Below are positions 16,630-31,392 of a stretch of DNA of 32,707 nucleotides, piece after piece. The notes beneath the pieces are model-generated. The model had not been told where the DNA came from and did no database searches. It saw only the letters and a program-made list of their open reading frames with translations. The stretch covers positions 1 to 32,707 of IMG/VR virus record IMGVR_UViG_3300025890_000070. One strand, written 5' to 3'. This DNA is from a virus. Position 1 is the stretch's first letter, and every line of letters starts with the position of its first letter. Both the position numbers and the translations under genes were made by a program.

Positions 16630-18474
16630 TTATCGCCATGCGTTGGTGTAGTTTTGTCTTGGCCTACGTTGAACTGGTCGCCTTCTTATCGGCTCATCTG
16701 GTTCAGGCTGCTCAACCTTCTTAGGTTCTGCTGATTTTGCCTGAATCCGTTCAGCAATGCTATTGACATTCGCATTGATTATACTATATGCGGCCCAACT
16801 GTACACCATCGTATCGAGTGCTTCATTCCTCGGACGAATTTGCTGAAAAACACGCTTCTTGTAACCTCTAACAAATTTGGTCACGATCTTCTCAGCCGTT
16901 AGCTGTCTGAAGTATTCATCGTTTAAGGTATCAGAAAAATGCACATAGCCAGCACCTTCTTCTTGAATTCTAAGCCTTGCAAAAATTAAGTCTTTAGCAG
17001 TATCTACGCCGACCGGAAACAATCGGCATTTCACCGTGTTATTCCTTGAAGGCTTGCCAGCAATCGGCCTGCCTTCACCGCCTACACCCTTTATCGCAAA
17101 CACTCTGCGCCCAAAGTTTCTATTGGCGTACTGGTAAACCGTGTTCGTAAAGTGACCGCCTGAGTCAATAGCCGTTGCCCTTACAGCAATTTCACGCCCA
17201 TCTTCGGTTTCAAATGTACGAGATATTTGTGAATCAAGCGCAGTCCAGAGCTGCGGAGTAGAAGGATCGCCATACATAATCTCATGACTAATTACCCATG
17301 ATTCTTCGTCCTTACCAATACCTAAAAAGCTGATCTCTAATCTGTCGTCTTGAACGTCTACGCCAGCGACGATCAGAATCACTTCTTCAGGTACTTTGTT
17401 AAAGTGTTCTTTTCTTTCTATTAGATTCAGCTCATCGACGCTTTCACCCGCGTCCTCCCAAACCTCACCCAAGTAGGTATTTGTCCAAACCTTTAGCTGT
17501 TCAGGGTTTTTCTTGACGGCTAGGAACTCGCGCACACCGTCAGCCAGTGGTGTCCAAGGTGAATACAATCCAGAAATCCTGAATCCTGCGATGCCTTTGA
17601 AGTCTTGACCAGCAGACCATCTGCCGTTTCTGATAGACCAACGTCTATCGGCATCAGACCAAAGCGTTCCGCATTCGTCGCAAAGGTATTGAGCCGTGTC
17701 AGGATCTTCGTCAGTCCACCTAACGCTTGCCCATTTTAATGTCTGCTCATGATCGCAATGCTTGCAAGGCACATAATATTCACGCTGATCAGAATCTTCA
17801 TAAGCGTTTTCAATCCTAGAAATTCCCTTGATTGTTGGCGTGGATACCATGATGATCTTTCGGTTCCAGAATGTAGACGTTCGCTTCTTCCCTAGATTAA
17901 CAGGATCACCTTCTGATCCTGCTGACGCTGGGAATCTATCAACCTCATCTGCAAGTAAAATCCTGATCGGTCTACTGGCTAATCCTGCTGGACTATTAGC
18001 ACCGACCAACGAAAGACTCCCTGACGGAAAGATCTTGTGAAGCGTTGTGTTGCCTGAATCCCTAGCCCTTGGATCTTTGACCTTACCCTGAAGACACGGC
18101 GTAGCTCGAAGCAGACCGTTAGCGATTCGGTCTTTACTAAACGCCTGAGCCATTGATTCAGTCGGCTGAAGCATAAGGATAGGACAAGGATCGTGATCGA
18201 TGTGAAACCCAATGATATTCAGAAGGGCTTCTGACTTACCTAATTGAGCGCCAGCCATGACAACGACTTCTTTTACTTTAGGGTCGGAACAAGCGTCCAT
18301 GATCCCGCGCTGGTATTCTGCGCGTGATGTATACCACTGGCCAGCTTCTGAACTTGATTGGCTGTCTAGCTTCCTGTTTGAATCAGCCCATGAGCTAACC
18401 GTGAACTTCGGCGGCGGCTTCAGTAGCTTCATCCCACTTAACAGGATTGCTTTCGCTTTCGACGGTGTTTCCAT
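16630..18474 (-). CDS. Terminase large subunit, GpA family
   Basis: This 614-residue packaging motor and nuclease has Walker A at 74-81 (AGAQLGKS), Walker B at 171-177 (RILLADE), coupling motif STPT near 211, a four-Cys zinc-like pair (C237xxC240, C265xxC268) and the nuclease aspartate at D373 (GVDVQDDRLE). These define the lambda GpA group, whose members usually cut at cos sites. The C-terminal tail is Pro/Arg-rich. ATG at 18474 gives an unusual 80-base overlap with the small subunit. An internal Met15 (MKLLKPPPKF, at 18432) would shorten the overlap and is a real alternative because neither has a good ribosome site. Confidence 0.95.
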   Translation of the reverse strand: METPSKAKAILLSGMKLLKPPPKFTVSSWADSNRKLDSQSSSEAGQWYTSRAEYQRGIMDACSDPKVKEVVVMAGAQLGKSEALLNIIGFHIDHDPCPILMLQPTESMAQAFSKDRIANGLLRATPCLQGKVKDPRARDSGNTTLHKIFPSGSLSLVGANSPAGLASRPIRILLADEVDRFPASAGSEGDPVNLGKKRTSTFWNRKIIMVSTPTIKGISRIENAYEDSDQREYYVPCKHCDHEQTLKWASVRWTDEDPDTAQYLCDECGTLWSDADRRWSIRNGRWSAGQDFKGIAGFRISGLYSPWTPLADGVREFLAVKKNPEQLKVWTNTYLGEVWEDAGESVDELNLIERKEHFNKVPEEVILIVAGVDVQDDRLEISFLGIGKDEESWVISHEIMYGDPSTPQLWTALDSQISRTFETEDGREIAVRATAIDSGGHFTNTVYQYANRNFGRRVFAIKGVGGEGRPIAGKPSRNNTVKCRLFPVGVDTAKDLIFARLRIQEEGAGYVHFSDTLNDEYFRQLTAEKIVTKFVRGYKKRVFQQIRPRNEALDTMVYSWAAYSIINANVNSIAERIQAKSAEPKKVEQPEPDEPIRRRPVQRRPRQNYTNAWR

Positions 18475-18934
18475 AGCTGGCTAACTCTAATAATGTTTCA
18501 TCTATAAATGATTCAAGAATGTCCATGATTACGTTTGTTTCTGTTTCGTCCCTAATCAATGGCGCTGCTTTTGAAGGGATAGATAAAATCTTTGACTTCA
18601 TATCGGAAAGAATCACTTCCCATTCCTTCGCCACATCTGCGGTGCCAACTAGAACATCATTAAGATGATCTAATTCTATTTGGGCTTTGTCTGCCTGTAT
18701 CCTTACTAACCTAGATTTCTCATTCTGATAATCTAATGGCTGGGCGGTATTGCCAACCATTCTTTCTTGTAAATATCGGATATAACCCTGAACTGCTGGC
18801 GCTAATTCATATCGGTTTCTTTCCGTCTTAGGAATGACACCTTCTTTAACTAACTGCTGAACTCTACGTTCCGTTAAAAGAAGCAGTTTAGAAATGGTGG
18901 TTACTGGATAAGTTGGGTTTCCTGCGTCACTCAT
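18395..18934 (-). CDS. Terminase small subunit, Nu1-like
   Basis: This 179-residue DNA-recognition subunit of the packaging motor has an N-terminal winged-HTH region (VTTISKLLLLTERRVQQLVKE) that resembles the Nu1/MerR-type domain, followed by a helical oligomerisation region with LVRIQADKAQIELDHLND, common to this family. It lies directly upstream of the large subunit and overlaps the stop of the methyltransferase gene by 8 bases. In Nu1 proteins this domain binds cos-flanking sites; here the best noncoding candidate is 20127-20254. Confidence 0.88.
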   Translation of the reverse strand: MSDAGNPTYPVTTISKLLLLTERRVQQLVKEGVIPKTERNRYELAPAVQGYIRYLQERMVGNTAQPLDYQNEKSRLVRIQADKAQIELDHLNDVLVGTADVAKEWEVILSDMKSKILSIPSKAAPLIRDETETNVIMDILESFIDETLLELASYGNTVESESNPVKWDEATEAAAEVHG

Positions 18935-20126
18935 CAGACACCTTCAGATCATTAAACTTTCTGCCGTCTTCGTGAATCGCTTCTTTGCCAGTGAAGTCTT
19001 GCCAGCGATTTATTATTACGTCACAGTATTTAGGATCTAGTTCCATCATAAAGCAGTTACGATGGTTTTTTTCGCAAGAAATTAAAGTTGATCCTGATCC
19101 TCCAAATGCATCGTAGACATTTTTTTTGTTCAATTGGTCTATCATCGCCATACCTATAAGCTCAACTGGCTTCATGGTGGGGTGCACTGTATTGCGCTGA
19201 CGCTTCATCTTCCAGATGTCACCCCGCAGGGTTTTATGGCCTCCAAAATCTCCGTAATACCAGATTATTTCGTGCTGTTTGAAATACTTATCTAAATGCT
19301 GTGCGGGATTCACCTTGTCCCATACAATCATAGCTTTGGGGGATCTGGCTATGCCTTCTAAAGCCTGACGAAAAAGGTGCGCGTATTGCCAAGAACAGCA
19401 AACATACATTGTCTCGCATCCCATGATTGAGTCTTGGAGAAACTGCACAAAATCATCGTCTGCCATTTTATCGTTAGCAATTTTATTGCGCTTGTCGCTT
19501 ACACCCTGATAATCGATGTTGTATGGGGGATCAGTGAACACCATGTCAGCCTTCTGCCCATCCATTAGATTATCGACTGCATCAATGCTAGTAGAGTCAC
19601 CACACATCAATCTGTGATTACCAAGTATCCAAACATCACCTTCAACCGTGACAGGATCTTCAGGCACTTCAGGAACATCGTCTTCATCTGTCAGTCCATC
19701 AATTTGTTCAGGAATTAACAGTTTGCTTAACTCATCATCATCGAAACCAGTTAGCGATAAATCAAATCCGTCTTCGTTTAATTGACCTAGCTCTAATCGT
19801 AAAAGCTCATCATCCCAGCCAGCATTCAGCGCCAGCTTGTTATCTGCAATGATATAAGCCTTTTTCTGAAAGTCGTTTAAATGGTCTAACCTGATGCAAG
19901 GCACTTCGGTTAAGCCAAGACGCATCGCCGCCTTCATTCTTCCGTGGCCAGCTATTATCATGTTGTCTTTATCAACCAAAACAGGATTGGTAAACCCGAA
20001 CTCTTTTATGCTTGCAGCTACCTGTGCGACTTGCTCATCGGAGTGTGATCGGCTGTTGTTTGCATATGGAACCAACCCTTCAATCGGAAGCATTTCAATT
20101 GCTGGTAATGATTTCTTCTTTGCCAT
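18927..20126 (-). CDS. ParB-like domain fused to DNA methyltransferase (beta class)
   Basis: This 399-residue fusion has a ParB/Srx-like domain at residues 5-135 with the motif GHGR (60-63), then a site-specific DNA methyltransferase with DPPY at 199-202 and the AdoMet loop FGGSGS at 341-346. DPPY before the FxGxG-type loop is the beta arrangement, which methylates exocyclic amino groups (N6-adenine or N4-cytosine). No cognate restriction enzyme is near, so it is an orphan enzyme that may protect phage DNA or mark packaging or replication. The ParB part can hydrolyse CTP in true ParB or act as nuclease in relatives; which applies here is not visible. It is placed directly before terminase, so it may act on DNA at the packaging site. 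Confidence 0.93.
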   Translation of the reverse strand: MAKKKSLPAIEMLPIEGLVPYANNSRSHSDEQVAQVAASIKEFGFTNPVLVDKDNMIIAGHGRMKAAMRLGLTEVPCIRLDHLNDFQKKAYIIADNKLALNAGWDDELLRLELGQLNEDGFDLSLTGFDDDELSKLLIPEQIDGLTDEDDVPEVPEDPVTVEGDVWILGNHRLMCGDSTSIDAVDNLMDGQKADMVFTDPPYNIDYQGVSDKRNKIANDKMADDDFVQFLQDSIMGCETMYVCCSWQYAHLFRQALEGIARSPKAMIVWDKVNPAQHLDKYFKQHEIIWYYGDFGGHKTLRGDIWKMKRQRNTVHPTMKPVELIGMAMIDQLNKKNVYDAFGGSGSTLISCEKNHRNCFMMELDPKYCDVIINRWQDFTGKEAIHEDGRKFNDLKVSDE

Positions 20127-20254: not shown

Positions 20255-20422
20255 TTATGGGCATTTGGGCTTCAGATCACGGAAGTCCGGCCAGTAGCCA
20301 CCACAGACGTTCTGTGTGTACTCCTGACTGATCTGCTCTTGATGTTCGAAGTCTTGGTTGCCTACGATGCCGATCAAAGCAATGATCGCGATGGTCAATA
20401 GAATCTTTTGCAGTCTGTTCAT
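20255..20422 (-). CDS. Small secreted or membrane-anchored Cys-containing protein
   Basis: This 55-residue protein starts at ATG 20422, picked because AAGGAG lies 6 bases upstream. A hydrophobic N-terminal segment (residues 5-20, KILLTIAIIALIGIVG) acts as signal or anchor, and a short exported part ends with YTQNVCGGYWPDFRDLKPKCP. The two cysteines may pair in the periplasm. Tiny proteins with this anchor-plus-Cys tail are frequent in phages; no function is known. It might interfere with the envelope or superinfection. Confidence 0.7.
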   Translation of the reverse strand: MNRLQKILLTIAIIALIGIVGNQDFEHQEQISQEYTQNVCGGYWPDFRDLKPKCP

Positions 20423-20479
20423 AATCTTCTCCTTGGTCATCATTATCATTGATTCCCTTATGCCAGTCAACTGTTCTAT

Positions 20480-21534: not shown

Positions 21535-21673
21535 ACGTCCAGTCGCAAGCAGTGCATTCTTGTCTGGGATACATGCCCAACACTTCTACGGTTAATTCAC
21601 CGCATAAAGGGCATGTGGTTTCATTCCAAGGCGCATTAGGATCTGTCCATGCTCCAGCAGGGTAGTTGCTCAT
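21518..21673 (-). CDS. Small zinc-ribbon protein
   Basis: This 51-residue protein starts at ATG 21673 (ATGA overlap with the previous gene) and ends TAA at 21518. Two CxxC knuckles, CPLC at 21-24 and CTAC at 40-43, make a minimal zinc ribbon with an acidic end (YEEDV). It starts MSNYPAGAWTDPNAPWNETT. Such stand-alone ribbons in phages may bind nucleic acid or a host polymerase; nothing here decides. Confidence 0.75.
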   Translation of the reverse strand: MSNYPAGAWTDPNAPWNETTCPLCGELTVEVLGMYPRQECTACDWTYEEDV

Positions 21674-21822
21674 TGTTCCTCCGCTTGTAGCTTATCCAAC
21701 AGGCTTAAAACGTCAGGGATAACTTGCTTGTGGTATTCGTCCACATAGTCAGGGCCATAGTAGTCCATGACTTTAACCAGCGTCATCCACGCCAGCAACA
21801 TTTCTTTTTTAGTTGGTTGCAC
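21670..21822 (-). CDS. Small helical protein
   Basis: This 50-residue protein starts at GTG 21822, chosen because GGAG lies seven bases upstream; a longer TTG frame has no such signal. It begins with Val-Gln-Pro-Thr-Lys-Lys (initiator Met replaces Val), followed by MLLAWMTLVKVMDYYGPDYV and DVLSLLDKLQAEEQ. Mostly helical, no recognised family. It is coupled by overlap to the genes on both sides (14 and 4 bases). Confidence 0.65.
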   Translation of the reverse strand: MQPTKKEMLLAWMTLVKVMDYYGPDYVDEYHKQVIPDVLSLLDKLQAEEQ

Positions 21823-22027
21823 CTTTCTTCTCCAAGTCAGTGATGATGTTTTTTGCAGTTCGCCAGTTGATACCAAATCTATACTTTATCCTGTTGGTAT
21901 TCCAGCCCAAAGCAACACGTTTAGCGATCTCAGATTCTAGCTCTGCGCGTGTTGCACAATTCCCGCTCGTCAACGGCCTTCCCTTCTTCATGGGACGCGT
22001 TGATTGTGGATGTCTAACCCAGTTCAT
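21809..22027 (-). CDS. Small HTH-like DNA-binding protein
   Basis: This 72-residue protein starts MNWVRHPQSTRPMKKGRPLT and holds a helix-turn-helix-like stretch, AELESEIAKRVALGWNTNRI followed by KYRFGINWRTAKNII. The pattern (helix, Gly-turn, WRTAKNII recognition helix) resembles small phage regulators or transposase-like HTH units. The ATG overlaps the stop of the CHC2 gene. Target unknown. Confidence 0.65.
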   Translation of the reverse strand: MNWVRHPQSTRPMKKGRPLTSGNCATRAELESEIAKRVALGWNTNRIKYRFGINWRTAKNIITDLEKKGATN

Positions 22028-22404: not shown

Positions 22405-23857
22405 CTTTGGCCCTTCTTATGTTGATGTGTGTGATGTGATCCTTTACTTCTGTTGAAACGTGGATCGTCGTTTGCGGATCTATCTTGTTGGGCCAGACAC
22501 CGAACTTCGACCTGTAGGCCCATGATGCCCATCCGTCCTTGTAGCCTTTCTGACGTGCGTAAAACTTGAACTCACCTAGCCACCGTGATTTTTCTTCTGC
22601 GCTGAAATTCCTGTTGGCCTTCTTCAGTTCTTTTAAGACCTGATCATCTGACTTCAGAATTTCTTTCGGTGGTCTTTGATACCCGCAGACACATCGTATC
22701 AAAAAATGCTGGAAACATTGTGGGCAAACTGACAGATCTGGCTCTTTCTTTTCTTTGGTCAGAATCCGCTCGTCGTATTTCTTCTCACCGTCATCCAAAG
22801 TATCGGGAACTATCGTCTCCGCGAATCCATGCTTTTGGACGTTACCTGAATGATCAAGATAAACGGCTTCTACCTTGTTGGGATGCGTTCGCATGATCCG
22901 ACCGGCCCTTTGGACGTAGGTGATCAAAGACTTAGTTGGGAAACAGTCGATCAGCGTCTGAACTTGGGGCGCGTCATATCCGGTATTTAACAATCGTGAA
23001 CATGAAAGAATCTGGAAGTCACCTTCATCATGTGACTCATACAGGCTCTGACGTTCGTCCTGCTCCATGTAGCCATCAATATGCTCTGCGGTGAATCCTT
23101 GTTCCCTAAACATCTCTACCAGCTTCTGACTGTGCTTGATCGACGGGCTGAAGGCTATGGTTTGACCCTTGCCGAATCGCTTAAAGTTTTCAATGATATC
23201 ACCAACCAGCTTTTCGTCAGACTCAATCGCTGATGCTAATGACTTAGGATCAAAGTCAGTTCCACCCGTACCGATTCGTTTCTTCTTCACACCCTTCAGG
23301 TTCGCGTGATGACCACCGTAGTATTTGACCGGACATAAATACCCCTGATCTAGCAATTGTTCTGGCGTGATAGGAACGATCAAATCAGAATAAAACTTTC
23401 CTAACCCTTTAGAATATGGCGTAGCACTAAGACCGATGAAGATCGACTTGCTGTAGTTGTCCATCAGCTCAGTGGTTGTCTGGTAATGGGTGTGGCACTC
23501 ATCAACAACTGCGACATGAAACAAGGGCTTGTAGCGCCTTCTAGCCAGCGTCTGGATCGATGCTATCTGAATCTGTGCATTCGGATTGGTTCGCCAGTGA
23601 TCGGACTGCATGACCCCGACCTTGATCCCTGCTCGATCAAATTCTTCTAGTGCTTGATCGACCAGCTTTACTCGGTCACAAATAAAGATGCCCATCTTGC
23701 CGTTCTTGGCTACGTTCTTCAGTATCTCAACTGCGACCCTAGTCTTTCCAAAGCTACAAGGCGCAGCTAAAACAGATCTGGTATTTCCTTTCCTGATCGA
23801 TTGTCTTAGCTGGTTCATCGCCTTGTCTTGATGCGGCCTTAACATCCTAAATCCCAT
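22382..23857 (-). CDS. SF2 DEAD/DEAH-type helicase
   Basis: This 491-residue ATPase has motif I APCSFGKT at 32-39, motif Ia LVDQALEEF near 65-73, motif II DECH at 119-122, motif III SATP at 144-147, and motif VI QRAGR at 316-320. A short Cys pair set (C378, C381, C389, C391) may bind zinc, and a C-terminal part (HFSAEEKSRWLGEF-like, NFSAEEKSRWLG) is typical for phage RadD/T-restriction-like helicases. In this phage it is the only helicase, so it likely unwinds DNA for replication or recombination with the zinc protein next to it. The start could also be Met5. Confidence 0.93.
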   Translation of the reverse strand: MGFRMLRPHQDKAMNQLRQSIRKGNTRSVLAAPCSFGKTRVAVEILKNVAKNGKMGIFICDRVKLVDQALEEFDRAGIKVGVMQSDHWRTNPNAQIQIASIQTLARRRYKPLFHVAVVDECHTHYQTTTELMDNYSKSIFIGLSATPYSKGLGKFYSDLIVPITPEQLLDQGYLCPVKYYGGHHANLKGVKKKRIGTGGTDFDPKSLASAIESDEKLVGDIIENFKRFGKGQTIAFSPSIKHSQKLVEMFREQGFTAEHIDGYMEQDERQSLYESHDEGDFQILSCSRLLNTGYDAPQVQTLIDCFPTKSLITYVQRAGRIMRTHPNKVEAVYLDHSGNVQKHGFAETIVPDTLDDGEKKYDERILTKEKKEPDLSVCPQCFQHFLIRCVCGYQRPPKEILKSDDQVLKELKKANRNFSAEEKSRWLGEFKFYARQKGYKDGWASWAYRSKFGVWPNKIDPQTTIHVSTEVKDHITHINIRRAKGVKRHSS

Positions 23858-24045
23858 CTTAGGATTTGTGTAGCGTGTTCTTCACCGATAGCATTCTTAA
23901 TGCCTTCGTCTAGGCACATGGCCCCGCCGGTTATGATGTAATTAACAACGAACTCTTTAATCAATTCGCCATCGCCCATGTCATCGATGTACGCTTTCAT
24001 GACTTCAGAATCTATTTCTAAGGTGCAATCTACTTTGACTTTCAT
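23839..24045 (-). CDS. Small conserved-looking protein of unknown function
   Basis: This 68-residue acidic protein starts at ATG 24045, three bases after GGGGAGAAG, a strong ribosome site. It begins MKVKVDCTLEIDSEVMKAYI, continues EFVVNYIITGGAMCLDEGIK and ends ATQILRWDLGC. One helical and one beta element are likely. It overlaps the helicase start by 19 bases. No family recognised. Confidence 0.75.
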   Translation of the reverse strand: MKVKVDCTLEIDSEVMKAYIDDMGDGELIKEFVVNYIITGGAMCLDEGIKNAIGEEHATQILRWDLGC

Positions 24046-24063
24046 CTTCTCCCCTTGGGCGGC

Positions 24064-27161: not shown

Positions 27162-27226
27162 CGCCTTATTGCATCCCATAAATCTTCAACAATAGCCTTG
27201 ATCTCATCCCATAATTTCTTAATCAT
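27158..27226 (-). CDS. 22-residue amphipathic leader peptide upstream of ninB
   Basis: ATG at 27226 has GGAG seven bases upstream; the frame MIKKLWDEIKAIVEDLWDAI plus RR stops with ATGA overlap at the ninB start. Hydrophobic residues recur every 3-4 positions, so a helix would be strongly amphipathic. It could be a coupling leader for ninB or a functional micro-peptide. Its small size limits confidence. Confidence 0.4.
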   Translation of the reverse strand: MIKKLWDEIKAIVEDLWDAIRR

Positions 27227-27431
27227 TGCTCAACTCCAAAAAATCAAATGGGTGAATCTTCAACTGATCGCAAATCTTACAGATCAAAGATAACTTTGCG
27301 TCTTCCCTGTACCTCCATTGTGATACCTGTTGTTTGGTAATACCAAGACGGGTAGCGAGTTCCGTAGAACTCACCCCCTTCTTGATCTGTGCGAGCCTCA
27401 AAGACTTCCCAAAGTTAAAACGGCAAGTCAT
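27219..27431 (-). CDS. Cro/CI-type HTH regulator
   Basis: This 70-residue single-domain repressor of the HTH_3 type has helix 2-turn-helix 3 in SSTELATRLGITKQQVSQWR, followed by LSLICKICDQLKIHPFDFLE. It is too short for a CI-like lytic switch domain, so it acts like Cro. It lies in the same operon it probably controls (no divergent gene), overlapping the SSB-like gene by 17 bases. Likely target: GTTTAC boxes near 29.2 kb. Confidence 0.85.
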   Translation of the reverse strand: MTCRFNFGKSLRLAQIKKGVSSTELATRLGITKQQVSQWRYREDAKLSLICKICDQLKIHPFDFLELSND

Positions 27432-28278: not shown

Positions 28279-28607
28279 AGCGAACACCTAATCAAAAAAT
28301 TATGCTCAACCGATCCAGTAGGTGGATCAAAGTTAGCAACACAATCTAATAGATCTAAACCTTCTTCTCCATCAGTTATCAAAGGTTTTTTATGATCGTG
28401 TCGAAAGTCACGTTTACAAAGCAAAAGACCAAAATTTTTGAACCTTTTCTTCTTTGCACTAAAAATGATTGATTTATGGTTTTGATCAAGAATAGCTTGT
28501 TCATGATCTTTGTAAGTTACATCTGGCACGTTAGATCGAACAAATACATCAATGCACTGTATTTTTTTTCTTAACTGATCAGTGATATCAACATAAGTAG
28601 CCATCAT
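28275..28607 (-). CDS. Unknown protein between Erf and YqaJ
   Basis: This 110-residue protein starts MMATYVDITDQLRKKIQCID and ends SVEHNFLIRCSL. It has a short basic patch (SAKKKRFKNFG) and HDHKK near residue 70. No family motif seen. Coupled by overlap on both sides, so it is likely part of the recombination operon. Its codon use (more AT) differs somewhat from its neighbours, which may mark a later insertion. Confidence 0.7.
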   Translation of the reverse strand: MMATYVDITDQLRKKIQCIDVFVRSNVPDVTYKDHEQAILDQNHKSIIFSAKKKRFKNFGLLLCKRDFRHDHKKPLITDGEEGLDLLDCVANFDPPTGSVEHNFLIRCSL

Positions 28608-29182
28608 TTCTTAGCCTGTTTAGCTTTCTTCTGCTGAAGCTGTTTTTTAGCCCTTTGGTACTGATCCTCAGTCATGCTTTTAAGGTTCTCAACACCATAT
28701 ACTTTAAGAAATGCAGACTTACTCGATTGAGTCGCATCTAGCATTGCGTCAAGATGTGCGACCTTCTCATCACTGATGTCTTCGATGCCTAGATCCTGCG
28801 CGTCTGTATCTTCGTCAGCGCAGACTGCCCACATTGATTGAGCTTGATATCTTTTTAAATACGTTGCGATGCTTCCAAGGTCTTGGATAGGGTTTTTGCT
28901 TTGTGGCGGAAGCTCAACACTGGCAACTTGTTTTATCCATTGCCCGCTAGAATGGCTGATTTGACTTGTAACAGCCACGTTGCCGCTGTAAGCCTCAACC
29001 CCTTGGACGAACGATAAGCCGTTAGCAGCCGCCACTGGCCTTATACAGCCCAGAACAGACGTTAAATCAGCGTATTCATTCTTGAAGAAAGTGTTCTTCG
29101 TGTTTTTGCTTGGATTACGAATTTCAGACTGTGCTTTAGCAAGCGCCGCTGTTAGTTCGTTGATGCTTTCTGATTGTTCCAT
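28604..29182 (-). CDS. Erf-type single-strand annealing protein
   Basis: This 192-residue protein has the ERF family pattern: ELTAALAKAQSEIRNPSKNT, FFKNEYADLTSVLGCIRP, LGSIATYLKRYQAQSMWAV and EDTDAQD. It anneals complementary strands in phage recombination and circularisation. The C-terminal part is Gln/Lys-rich. It is the first gene of the early operon, after the control region at 29.2 kb, with GGAG seven to eight bases before ATG. Confidence 0.93.
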   Translation of the reverse strand: MEQSESINELTAALAKAQSEIRNPSKNTKNTFFKNEYADLTSVLGCIRPVAAANGLSFVQGVEAYSGNVAVTSQISHSSGQWIKQVASVELPPQSKNPIQDLGSIATYLKRYQAQSMWAVCADEDTDAQDLGIEDISDEKVAHLDAMLDATQSSKSAFLKVYGVENLKSMTEDQYQRAKKQLQQKKAKQAKK

Positions 29183-29202
29183 TGTCTTCTCCTTTGTTGA
29201 AA

Positions 29203-29219
29203 CGCTTACATCGTAAACG
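29203..29219. promoter_or_regulatory. Operator-like inverted repeat
   Basis: CGTTTAC-GAT-GTAAGCG on the minus strand has arms matching at 6 of 7 positions, just upstream of erf. GTTTAC is repeated in the same direction 21 bases further upstream, two helical turns away. This is a typical layout for a dimeric repressor such as the 70-residue Cro-like protein of the operon. Confidence 0.5.
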
Positions 29220-29238
29220 AATCATGTTAAGAAGTAAA
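29210..29238 (-). promoter_or_regulatory. Candidate early promoter for the recombination operon
   Basis: TTTACT at 29238-29233, spacer 17, TACGAT at 29215-29210 give 4 of 6 matches each. It would start transcription about 20 bases before the erf ribosome site. Both hexamers overlap GTTTAC boxes, so a bound regulator would block polymerase. The match is modest. Confidence 0.45.
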
Positions 29239-29280
29239 CAAAACGGACGATATGAATTAGAAGGGATTGTGGTAAAATGT

Positions 29281-29338
29281 AGTTTCTTCTCCCCCGCGCT
29301 CTCCAGCGCACTGGCCCACTTCGGTGGGCCTTTTATTT
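29281..29338 (+). ncRNA. Candidate plus-strand small RNA (two hairpins plus terminator)
   Basis: Plus-strand order: a pyrimidine-rich leader (TTTCTTCTCCCCC), hairpin GCGCT-CTCC-AGCGC, and hairpin GGCCCAC-TTCG-GTGGGCC followed by TTTTATTT. An extended -10 box TGGTAAAAT at 29270-29278 could start a transcript of about 55 bases. It is the only plus-strand element in the window. The leader is complementary to several phage ribosome sites of the type GGAGAAGA. A convergent terminator without a dedicated RNA is the alternative. Confidence 0.4.
29313..29338 (+). terminator. Intrinsic terminator, plus-strand orientation
   Basis: A perfect 7-bp stem GGCCCAC/GTGGGCC with a TTCG loop and TTTTATTT tract on the plus strand. 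It faces the M15 gene stop from the early side. On the minus strand the same stem has no T tract after it, so it would act poorly there. Confidence 0.75.
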
Positions 29339-29684
29339 AGTAAGTCCAGATAACTGGGGTAGTTTGACGCATATCCACATGAACGAAAGTCTTGGCTATA
29401 CCGACTCCGCTCATCCCAAGCTCAAGAGCTTTTGAAACAATAATAAAACGCTGAGCGCCGTTGCTAATAGCAATATCAGCAGCAAAGCCTGTTGTGTGCT
29501 GTCCTCCACCATTAGGTTTAGCAGCTTCGATAGAATGCTTCGGACTACGATACCCAGACGTAATTTTAAACGGGAAGCCGCACTCATGGCGTAGCACATC
29601 CAACGCTGTAACAAATTCTTCTTTAATTTCATTCTCACCAGTCTCCTGACAAGCAAATTCTTCTAACGTGAAATACTTAAACAT
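29337..29684 (-). CDS. M15-family peptidase, probable endolysin
   Basis: This 115-residue single-domain enzyme has metal ligands H63 and D70 (QHTTGFAAD) and H102 with D104 (FVHVD), the peptidase M15 (DD-carboxypeptidase/L-Ala-D-Glu type) set. ITSGYRSPKH at 41-50 completes the fold signature. It cuts peptidoglycan cross-links. It lies right after the holin (overlap TGATG), as in lysis cassettes. No signal peptide; release depends on the holin. The ATG is preferred to the upstream GTG. Confidence 0.92.
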   Translation of the reverse strand: MFKYFTLEEFACQETGENEIKEEFVTALDVLRHECGFPFKITSGYRSPKHSIEAAKPNGGGQHTTGFAADIAISNGAQRFIIVSKALELGMSGVGIAKTFVHVDMRQTTPVIWTY

Positions 29685-30082
29685 CACTTATCCCTGTGTA
29701 CCGAATTTTTCTTTTCGTAGGTTCTCATTGCCCCTAACCCGAGCATTCCCATGAGGACGGGCATCATGGTCTCCAAGGGGACTAGAGGTATAACTATGTC
29801 TATACCTAACAAGGCCAGCACAAAGTTGCTAAATGGGATAGTAATAAAGTTCCCAAACATGCCCAGAACGCACACCCAACCCACTGCGGGTCGCCAGCCG
29901 GACACGAACAGCGACTTGTGGGCCGCTTCGACCTGATTGATAGCCATCTGGCCTTTAGCAATTTCTTGCGCGTATTTCTGCGACATGGTTGCAATTTCAT
30001 GCGCCAAGGCGTTCTTCTGGTCTTTGTCCTCTATGAACTTGTCTAACAGTCCCGTGACTGGCCCGATCAGCTTGTCTATCAC
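29684..30082 (-). CDS. 3TM holin, gene-transfer-agent type
   Basis: This 132-residue protein begins with an amphipathic N-terminal coil (LTGLLDKF-like, then NALAHEIATMSQKYAQEI), AAHKSLFVSGWRPAVGWVCV with the diagnostic WRPAVGW motif, and two to three hydrophobic helices to LMGMLGLGAMRTYEK. That is the GTA_holin_3TM family, which forms membrane holes for endolysin release. It starts at GTG 30082, coupled to the gene upstream (ATGA-like). Confidence 0.9.
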   Translation of the reverse strand: MIDKLIGPVTGLLDKFIEDKDQKNALAHEIATMSQKYAQEIAKGQMAINQVEAAHKSLFVSGWRPAVGWVCVLGMFGNFITIPFSNFVLALLGIDIVIPLVPLETMMPVLMGMLGLGAMRTYEKKNSVHRDK

Positions 30083-31013: not shown

Positions 31014-31217
31014 TTATTCGACTAATTCACCCGCTGGTTCTAAGTCTTCTTTGATTGAGTTTACGTAAGCCTGAAAGACTGTCTGCAATTCCTGCTGCTG
31101 AAGATTCATTGACCGGATCTGTGCGTTGATTTCCTGCATACGCGCAACCTTTGCCTGTACTTCTTCAGGCAAGTCATCAATTTCATACTCTAAATCATCA
31201 ATCCTTAACGTCCCCAT
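31014..31217 (-). CDS. Small coiled protein, DUF6447-like
   Basis: This 67-residue protein starts MGTLRIDDLEYEIDDLPEEV, followed by a long helix (QEINAQIRSMNLQQQELQTV) and a final EDLEPAGELVE. The beta start plus helix is as in small phage proteins of the DUF6447 type that accompany fibres. GAGGAAG before ATG. Overlaps the holin-like gene by 20 bases. Role unknown. Confidence 0.65.
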   Translation of the reverse strand: MGTLRIDDLEYEIDDLPEEVQAKVARMQEINAQIRSMNLQQQELQTVFQAYVNSIKEDLEPAGELVE

Positions 31218-31392
31218 CTTCCTCTCCCTTTTTAAAGATAGCTTGAATAGTTCGTGATTCCCAGATCCTAAGACCTAGCCAAATAATAGTTAGCGAGGCA
31301 GCAACATCAGGCAACCATCCAGCTATTGTAGCGATTCCACCAGTGACTGCAACGCCATCGAGGACTGTTTTGACCGCCTCCTCGTCTACCAC
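31198..31392 (-). CDS. Small holin-like membrane protein
   Basis: This 64-residue protein starts at GTG 31392, overlapping the previous stop. Acidic N-terminus (VDEEAVKTVLDG), hydrophobic helices at about 13-28 and 29-44 (GIATIAGWLPDVAASLTIIW) with a WLPDVAA turn, then RIWESRTIQAIF and a charged tail. Two helices and a charged tail are holin-like; a second holin or a pinholin/antiholin to the 3TM protein is possible. Confidence 0.65.
   Translation of the reverse strand: MVDEEAVKTVLDGVAVTGGIATIAGWLPDVAASLTIIWLGLRIWESRTIQAIFKKGEEDGDVKD

Follow-up and report, generated by a model that had tools for sequence, protein, structure and literature searches.

A putative small RNA unit beside erf in uncultured phages that changes together with the ribosome sites of several phage genes

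Introduction

The best-known phage antisense RNAs have one overlapping gene or host mRNAs as their targets. OOP, for example, runs from promoter to terminator as a short unit encoded opposite to the genes beside it. Among bacteria, CuckooRNAs and other anti-ribosome-site small RNAs can pair with ribosome sites through CU-rich seeds, which lie in loops or in single strands; the CuckooRNA motif is of the CCUCCUCCC type and is presented in hairpin loops.

Several phage RNAs have been described that act by pairing. In phages P1 and P7, translation of ant is blocked by the C4 RNA, whose short exposed stretches pair around the ribosome site of that gene (PMC12197685). OOP RNA of lambda and sar RNA of P22 are short antisense RNAs that lower phage gene expression, and PreS of lambda and VpdS of VP882 are separate small phage RNAs that base pair in trans (PMC12197685). 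Here we describe a predicted small RNA unit in an uncultured phage and in its relatives, and compare it with these systems.

Results

Setting and parts of the RNA unit

The window, by which we mean the whole stretch of DNA analysed, is a 32.7-kb record of an uncultured phage with its recognisable genes on the minus strand. Its terminase (16630–18474) is 56–58% identical to those of the isolated Roseobacter phages CRP-406, 811, 821, 822, 823 and 831, which hints at a related host. The early module of these six phages is unlike that of the window, and a screen of CRP-406, 811, 821 and 831 for terminators with an upstream anti-ribosome-site returned none. Genome contigs scanned with the Erf alignment held no relative and so gave no host link. 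The region 18927–20126 encodes a single 399-aa protein with matches to ParB-like and DNA methyltransferase families along its length.

A gap of 154 bases separates erf from the endolysin gene (29337–29687). The erf transcript is predicted to start near 29203, from a putative promoter that stands back to back with the promoter of the RNA (Table 1). GTTTAC repeats on the minus strand (29210–29239), kept in much of the window's phage group (group A, below), overlap both the -35 and the -10 of this predicted promoter and may form an operator, for which the Cro-like HTH protein encoded at 27219–27431 is one candidate.

A sequence-only reading of the window had placed an extended -10, a pyrimidine leader, a 5-bp hairpin and a TTCG-loop terminator at 29270–29338, on an otherwise unused plus strand. 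Each of these parts was located there, and the surrounding genes are all on the minus strand. A 52-aa TTG frame on the plus strand (29182–29340) is mechanical. The transcript would start near 29282–29285, and leader bases 29285–29292 are the exact complement of GGAGAAGA. In the predicted fold of the window RNA the leader is unpaired and both hairpins are formed. The seed is likewise predicted to be unpaired in group A as a whole, to lie in a loop in group B and in a linker in group F; folding indicates that the group-C seed may self-fold if the RNA begins at GGA. Hairpin 1 was taken from single folds, as RNAalifold on a mixed A/B alignment missed it because the variable loop was misaligned. 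Covariation of the stems in relatives had been proposed as a check, and the changes in the stem of hairpin 1, read by eye, are indeed compensatory (GCGC/GCGC, GUGC/GCAC, GAGC/GCUC and GGGC/GCUC).

Pattern scans of the single window found promoter-like and terminator-like sites to be no commoner than in shuffles, so the RNA unit would not stand out from one window. It is the comparison of sequences, through conservation at 72 loci together with covariation in trans, that raises the unit above chance. Rfam gave no match to the RNA at the gathering threshold; at E<=10 the best was isrB, with 18.3 bits against a threshold of 35 and driven by the terminator.

Table 1. Coordinates in the window of the small RNA unit, its predicted target sites and the adjoining erf features
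Feature	Position	Strand	Basis or predicted pairing energy with the leader
Ribosome site GGAGAAGATT (contains GGAGAAGA) of 55-aa gene 20255–20422	20423..20432	-	-12.8 kcal/mol
Ribosome site GGAGAAGAAAG (match GGAGAAGAAA) of 50-aa gene 21670–21822	21823..21833	-	-14.4 kcal/mol
Ribosome site GGGGAGAAG of 68-aa gene 23839–24045	24046..24054	-	-19.4 kcal/mol
erf, single-strand annealing protein	28604..29182	-	PHROG 2324, E=1.7e-38
erf ribosome site GGAGAAGA	29185..29192	-	-12.7 kcal/mol
erf promoter, predicted, TTTACT-17-TACGAT	29210..29238	-	Read from the sequence as a putative promoter
Extended -10 of the small RNA promoter, TGG-TAAAAT, without a good -35	29270..29278	+	Sequence; TGN-TANNNT kept in nearly all groups
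5' leader GTTTCTTCTCCCCC (as RNA GUUUCUUCUCCCCC), anti-ribosome-site seed	29282..29295	+	Core without variation in group A; covariation with the ribosome sites of erf and of other genes
Hairpin 1, GCGCU-CUCC-AGCGC, 5 bp	29296..29309	+	All single-sequence folds of groups A, B and F; compensatory stem changes
Terminator with UUCG loop, GGCCCAC-TTCG-GTGGGCC-TTTTATTT (RNA tail UUUUAUUU), GC-rich with U-rich tail	29313..29338	+	Sequence; among the best conserved parts of the unit
Ribosome site GGGAGAGGAAG of HTH/DUF6447-like gene 31014–31217	31218..31228	-	-17.3 kcal/mol, with G-U

Conservation in relatives

Relatives were gathered by Erf searches of IMG/VR, with one further found via exonuclease. 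The promoter–seed–hairpin unit stands beside erf in 72 loci, window included, which belong to four phage groups (A, B, C and F); group A is that of the window. Nine loci of a more distant clade (L153–L161) have no RNA in the erf-side slot, and in eight of the nine (L154–L161) a plus-strand frame, 236 aa long in L154, begins in the slot upstream of erf. Exact patterns of the A and B versions were also counted throughout IMG/VR, the C pattern being too loose and left out; all 38 matching contigs were, by contig name, erf contigs already found.

Nine leader bases, UCUUCUCCC (also given as TCTTCTCCC), are invariant in 20 distinct group-A sequences, with adjoining leader bases and hairpin 1 varying around them. 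The terminator is among the best conserved parts of the unit, and the group-A seed is equally invariant. An unconserved leader in front of a plain terminator had been named as the outcome that would tell against the small RNA; the opposite is seen. At 14 of the 21 group-B loci (L038, L041 and L126–L137) AACTT or a similar sequence, not a U run, follows the terminator stem, and these loci keep promoter, seed and stems. The seed copy has moved in group F, still lying between promoter and terminator.

The RNAs of group C (L043–L058, L148 and L201) carry an 11–12-nt C-rich loop inside the terminator hairpin, for example UAUCCUUCCCCU. GGGGAAG is a possible partner of this loop, and some group-C genomes show several gene starts with GGGGAAG; such starts occur in L201, G022, G023 and G024. 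Starts with GGGGAA occur in the RNA-less clade too, so this second pairing in group C is left tentative.

Covariation with ribosome sites

The RNA holds an exact copy, as the complement, of its own erf ribosome site in 68 of the 72 loci as scored by script (7–10 nt in 67, and 6 nt in L126). Three of the remaining four (L057, L201 and L151) need one G-U pair, and the last, L054, is a misread erf start. The erf site of group A is GGAGAAGA and its RNA reads UCUUCUCC; a subgroup with the erf site GGAGAAGAGA has UCUCUUCUCC in its RNA, a 10-nt match. Group B has the erf site GGAGGAAG and carries CUUCCUCC in a hairpin, and in group C an erf site of the form GGAGCAA(T/G/A) goes with an RNA that reads GGAUUGCUCC or GGACUUGCUCC. 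The site of group F is GGAGCAAG (GGAGCAA), and CUUGCUCC or CUUGCUCU lies between the two hairpins. Pairing of GGAG with 16S rRNA, at the anti-Shine-Dalgarno, cannot account for the group-specific bases after GGAG. That the RNA and the phage ribosome sites changed together between lineages is strong comparative evidence for real pairing, and supports the earlier proposal of a trans-acting RNA.

When the 51 gene starts in the window are ranked as partners of the leader, four small genes and erf take the first five places (-19.4 to -12.7 kcal/mol). The four complementary ribosome sites that had been listed before, those of the 68-aa, 50-aa and 55-aa genes and of erf, are all real matches; the fifth, GGGAGAGGAAG before the HTH gene, is new. 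The 68-aa gene precedes the helicase, whose start its end overlaps, and the 55-aa gene precedes the methyltransferase. Orthologs of the 55-aa gene in group C have GGAGCAA and one group-B ortholog of the 50-aa gene has GGAGGAAG; those of the HTH gene have exact GGAGAAG in A2/A3 and GGAGCAA in group C. The sequence-only reading had spoken of early translation, which calls for one amendment: erf is the one predicted target present in every RNA-bearing group, and the HTH gene, a conserved extra one, lies on the late-gene side, before the holin.

Covariation was then scored with erf left out, each gene family counted once per group and the trimer after GGAG recorded, genes and starts being called by script. 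The trimer that matches the group's own RNA is the commonest of the 64 in all three groups: AAG in 17 of 53 families (A), GAA in 8 of 34 (B) and CAA in 6 of 33 (C). The 3 × 3 table of trimer against group (A, B, C) reads (17, 5, 1), (2, 8, 1), (1, 2, 6), and 31 of its 43 family entries match the RNA of their own group (permutation p = 5e-6). A coarser gene call points in the same direction (16/126, 5/68 and 5/86 families). Five non-erf families in all switch motif with the RNA, the 55-aa and HTH genes between A and C, and the 50-aa family together with a 162-aa and a 159-aa family between A and B. The RNA unit, its conservation and its concerted change with many ribosome sites are demonstrated at the level of sequence.

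Alternative explanations

An RNA that regulates its neighbour erf only, other matches being by-products of a lineage-wide ribosome-site style, would fit with erf being the only target common to all groups and with several orthologs of group-A targets that do not switch. A duplex-energy swap without erf was significant for group A, where one seed gave 11% with its own sites against 2% with others (p = 3e-4), a level reached by none of 40 shuffles. For B or C it was not clearly significant, so that the case for several targets in these two groups depends on exact motifs in a small number of families. We nevertheless hold an action on erf only to be unlikely. The concordance described above was obtained with erf excluded, and four other genes of the window pair with the leader as well as erf or better. 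Moreover, many genes of RNA-bearing genomes carry other bases after GGAG, which speaks against a genome-wide style, and the RNA-less clade has no dominant trimer after GGAG (17 families, none above 2).

Pairing with ribosome sites is a general property of pyrimidine runs, and a well-conserved terminator would be expected of a plain transcription unit or antisense terminator whose leader matches merely because ribosome sites are purine-rich. This is a good deal less probable still, since the group-A seed is as invariant as the terminator, the seed varies from group to group in step with the ribosome sites, at positions that take no part in pairing with 16S rRNA, and group F preserves the match although the seed sits elsewhere in the RNA. 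Least probable of all, and in our view barely credible, is that the minus-strand copy functions as a ribosome site, or as a repeated element bound by protein, in which case the plus-strand reading would be incidental. The copy does have ribosome-site sense on the gene-bearing strand, and no clear minus-strand terminator separates endolysin and erf. Yet conservation of the extended -10 and of the terminator is on the plus strand, and the shifted copy of group F still lies between promoter and terminator. The ribosome-site version was rejected because the copy is not followed, in any of the contigs listed, by a start codon that opens a usable frame.

Discussion

We favour, with a probability of roughly 0.78, a non-coding, trans-acting antisense RNA of ~55 nt that would block 30S subunits on the mRNAs of erf and several small genes, a shared translational brake. 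A sigma-70 type promoter with an extended -10, adjoining the erf promoter and pointing away from it, would make the RNA, and the UUCG terminator would end it. Its exposed seed would be complementary to an extended form of the ribosome-binding site that erf and several small phage genes have in common, made up of the GGAG core and the lineage-specific bases after it. The seed would pair in trans with these extended sites in competition with 30S subunits, and the pairing probably limits translation of the matched genes. From the comparison we infer that the RNA is transcribed, that it pairs with these mRNAs inside the cell and that repression results, and we infer the timing as well. The erf and RNA promoters may share a regulator, as the GTTTAC repeats and the Cro-like HTH gene suggest, and an mRNA that reads through from endolysin into erf would contain the entire complement of the RNA and could later sequester it.

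We lean slightly towards a broader reading, in which the RNA and the phage ribosome sites evolve as a unit. Such a private ribosome-site code would have each lineage mark its co-controlled genes by its own bases after GGAG, and in group C a further class of site (GGGGAAG) might be the partner of the second, C-rich loop. With one phage RNA covarying with many of the phage's own mRNAs, a seed, its targets and natural compensatory changes are already laid out from comparison alone. This suggests that regulatory information can reside in the spacer bases that follow the GGAG core in phage ribosome sites. Such RNAs could also be sought in metagenomic phages with no need for transcripts, by matching the ribosome-site spacers peculiar to a lineage against short intergenic units. 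None of the open-licence papers searched describes a phage RNA that evolves in concert with several ribosome sites of its own phage.

The RNA resembles OOP in being a short promoter-to-terminator unit opposite neighbouring genes. OOP and sar, however, are cis-antisense RNAs with long perfect overlap, whereas the RNA described here uses a seed of 7–10 nt. Cis-antisense action of that type was rejected, as the RNA (29282–29338) does not overlap the erf transcript from its predicted start. PreS targets host genes, and VpdS targets phage and host mRNAs with Hfq; the evidence here points to the phage's own ribosome sites. With CuckooRNAs the RNA shares a CU-rich seed able to pair with ribosome sites, but those are bacterial and have their own consensus, whereas this seed is lineage-specific and tied to phage genes. 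The CuckooRNA motif itself is absent, the window RNA having UCUUCUCCCC in the leader and the group-B loop reading UUCCUCC. As in anti-ribosome-site small RNAs generally, the seed is complementary to sites encoded elsewhere and covaries with them. The putative transcription unit itself keeps its extended -10 and terminator, the U run being lost in 14/21 group-B loci.

The closest likeness is to C4, since here too a phage ribosome site finds its complement in short stretches of a phage RNA. The target of C4 is the antirepressor gene ant, and its role lies in immunity, whereas the RNA here is predicted to act on erf and several small genes, and no antirepressor is among its annotated neighbours. 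It moreover forms a divergent unit of its own, and it co-varies with its sites from lineage to lineage. Our analysis suggests that the RNA most likely works in the manner of C4 without being a member of that family, having another arrangement and other putative targets, several genes among them.
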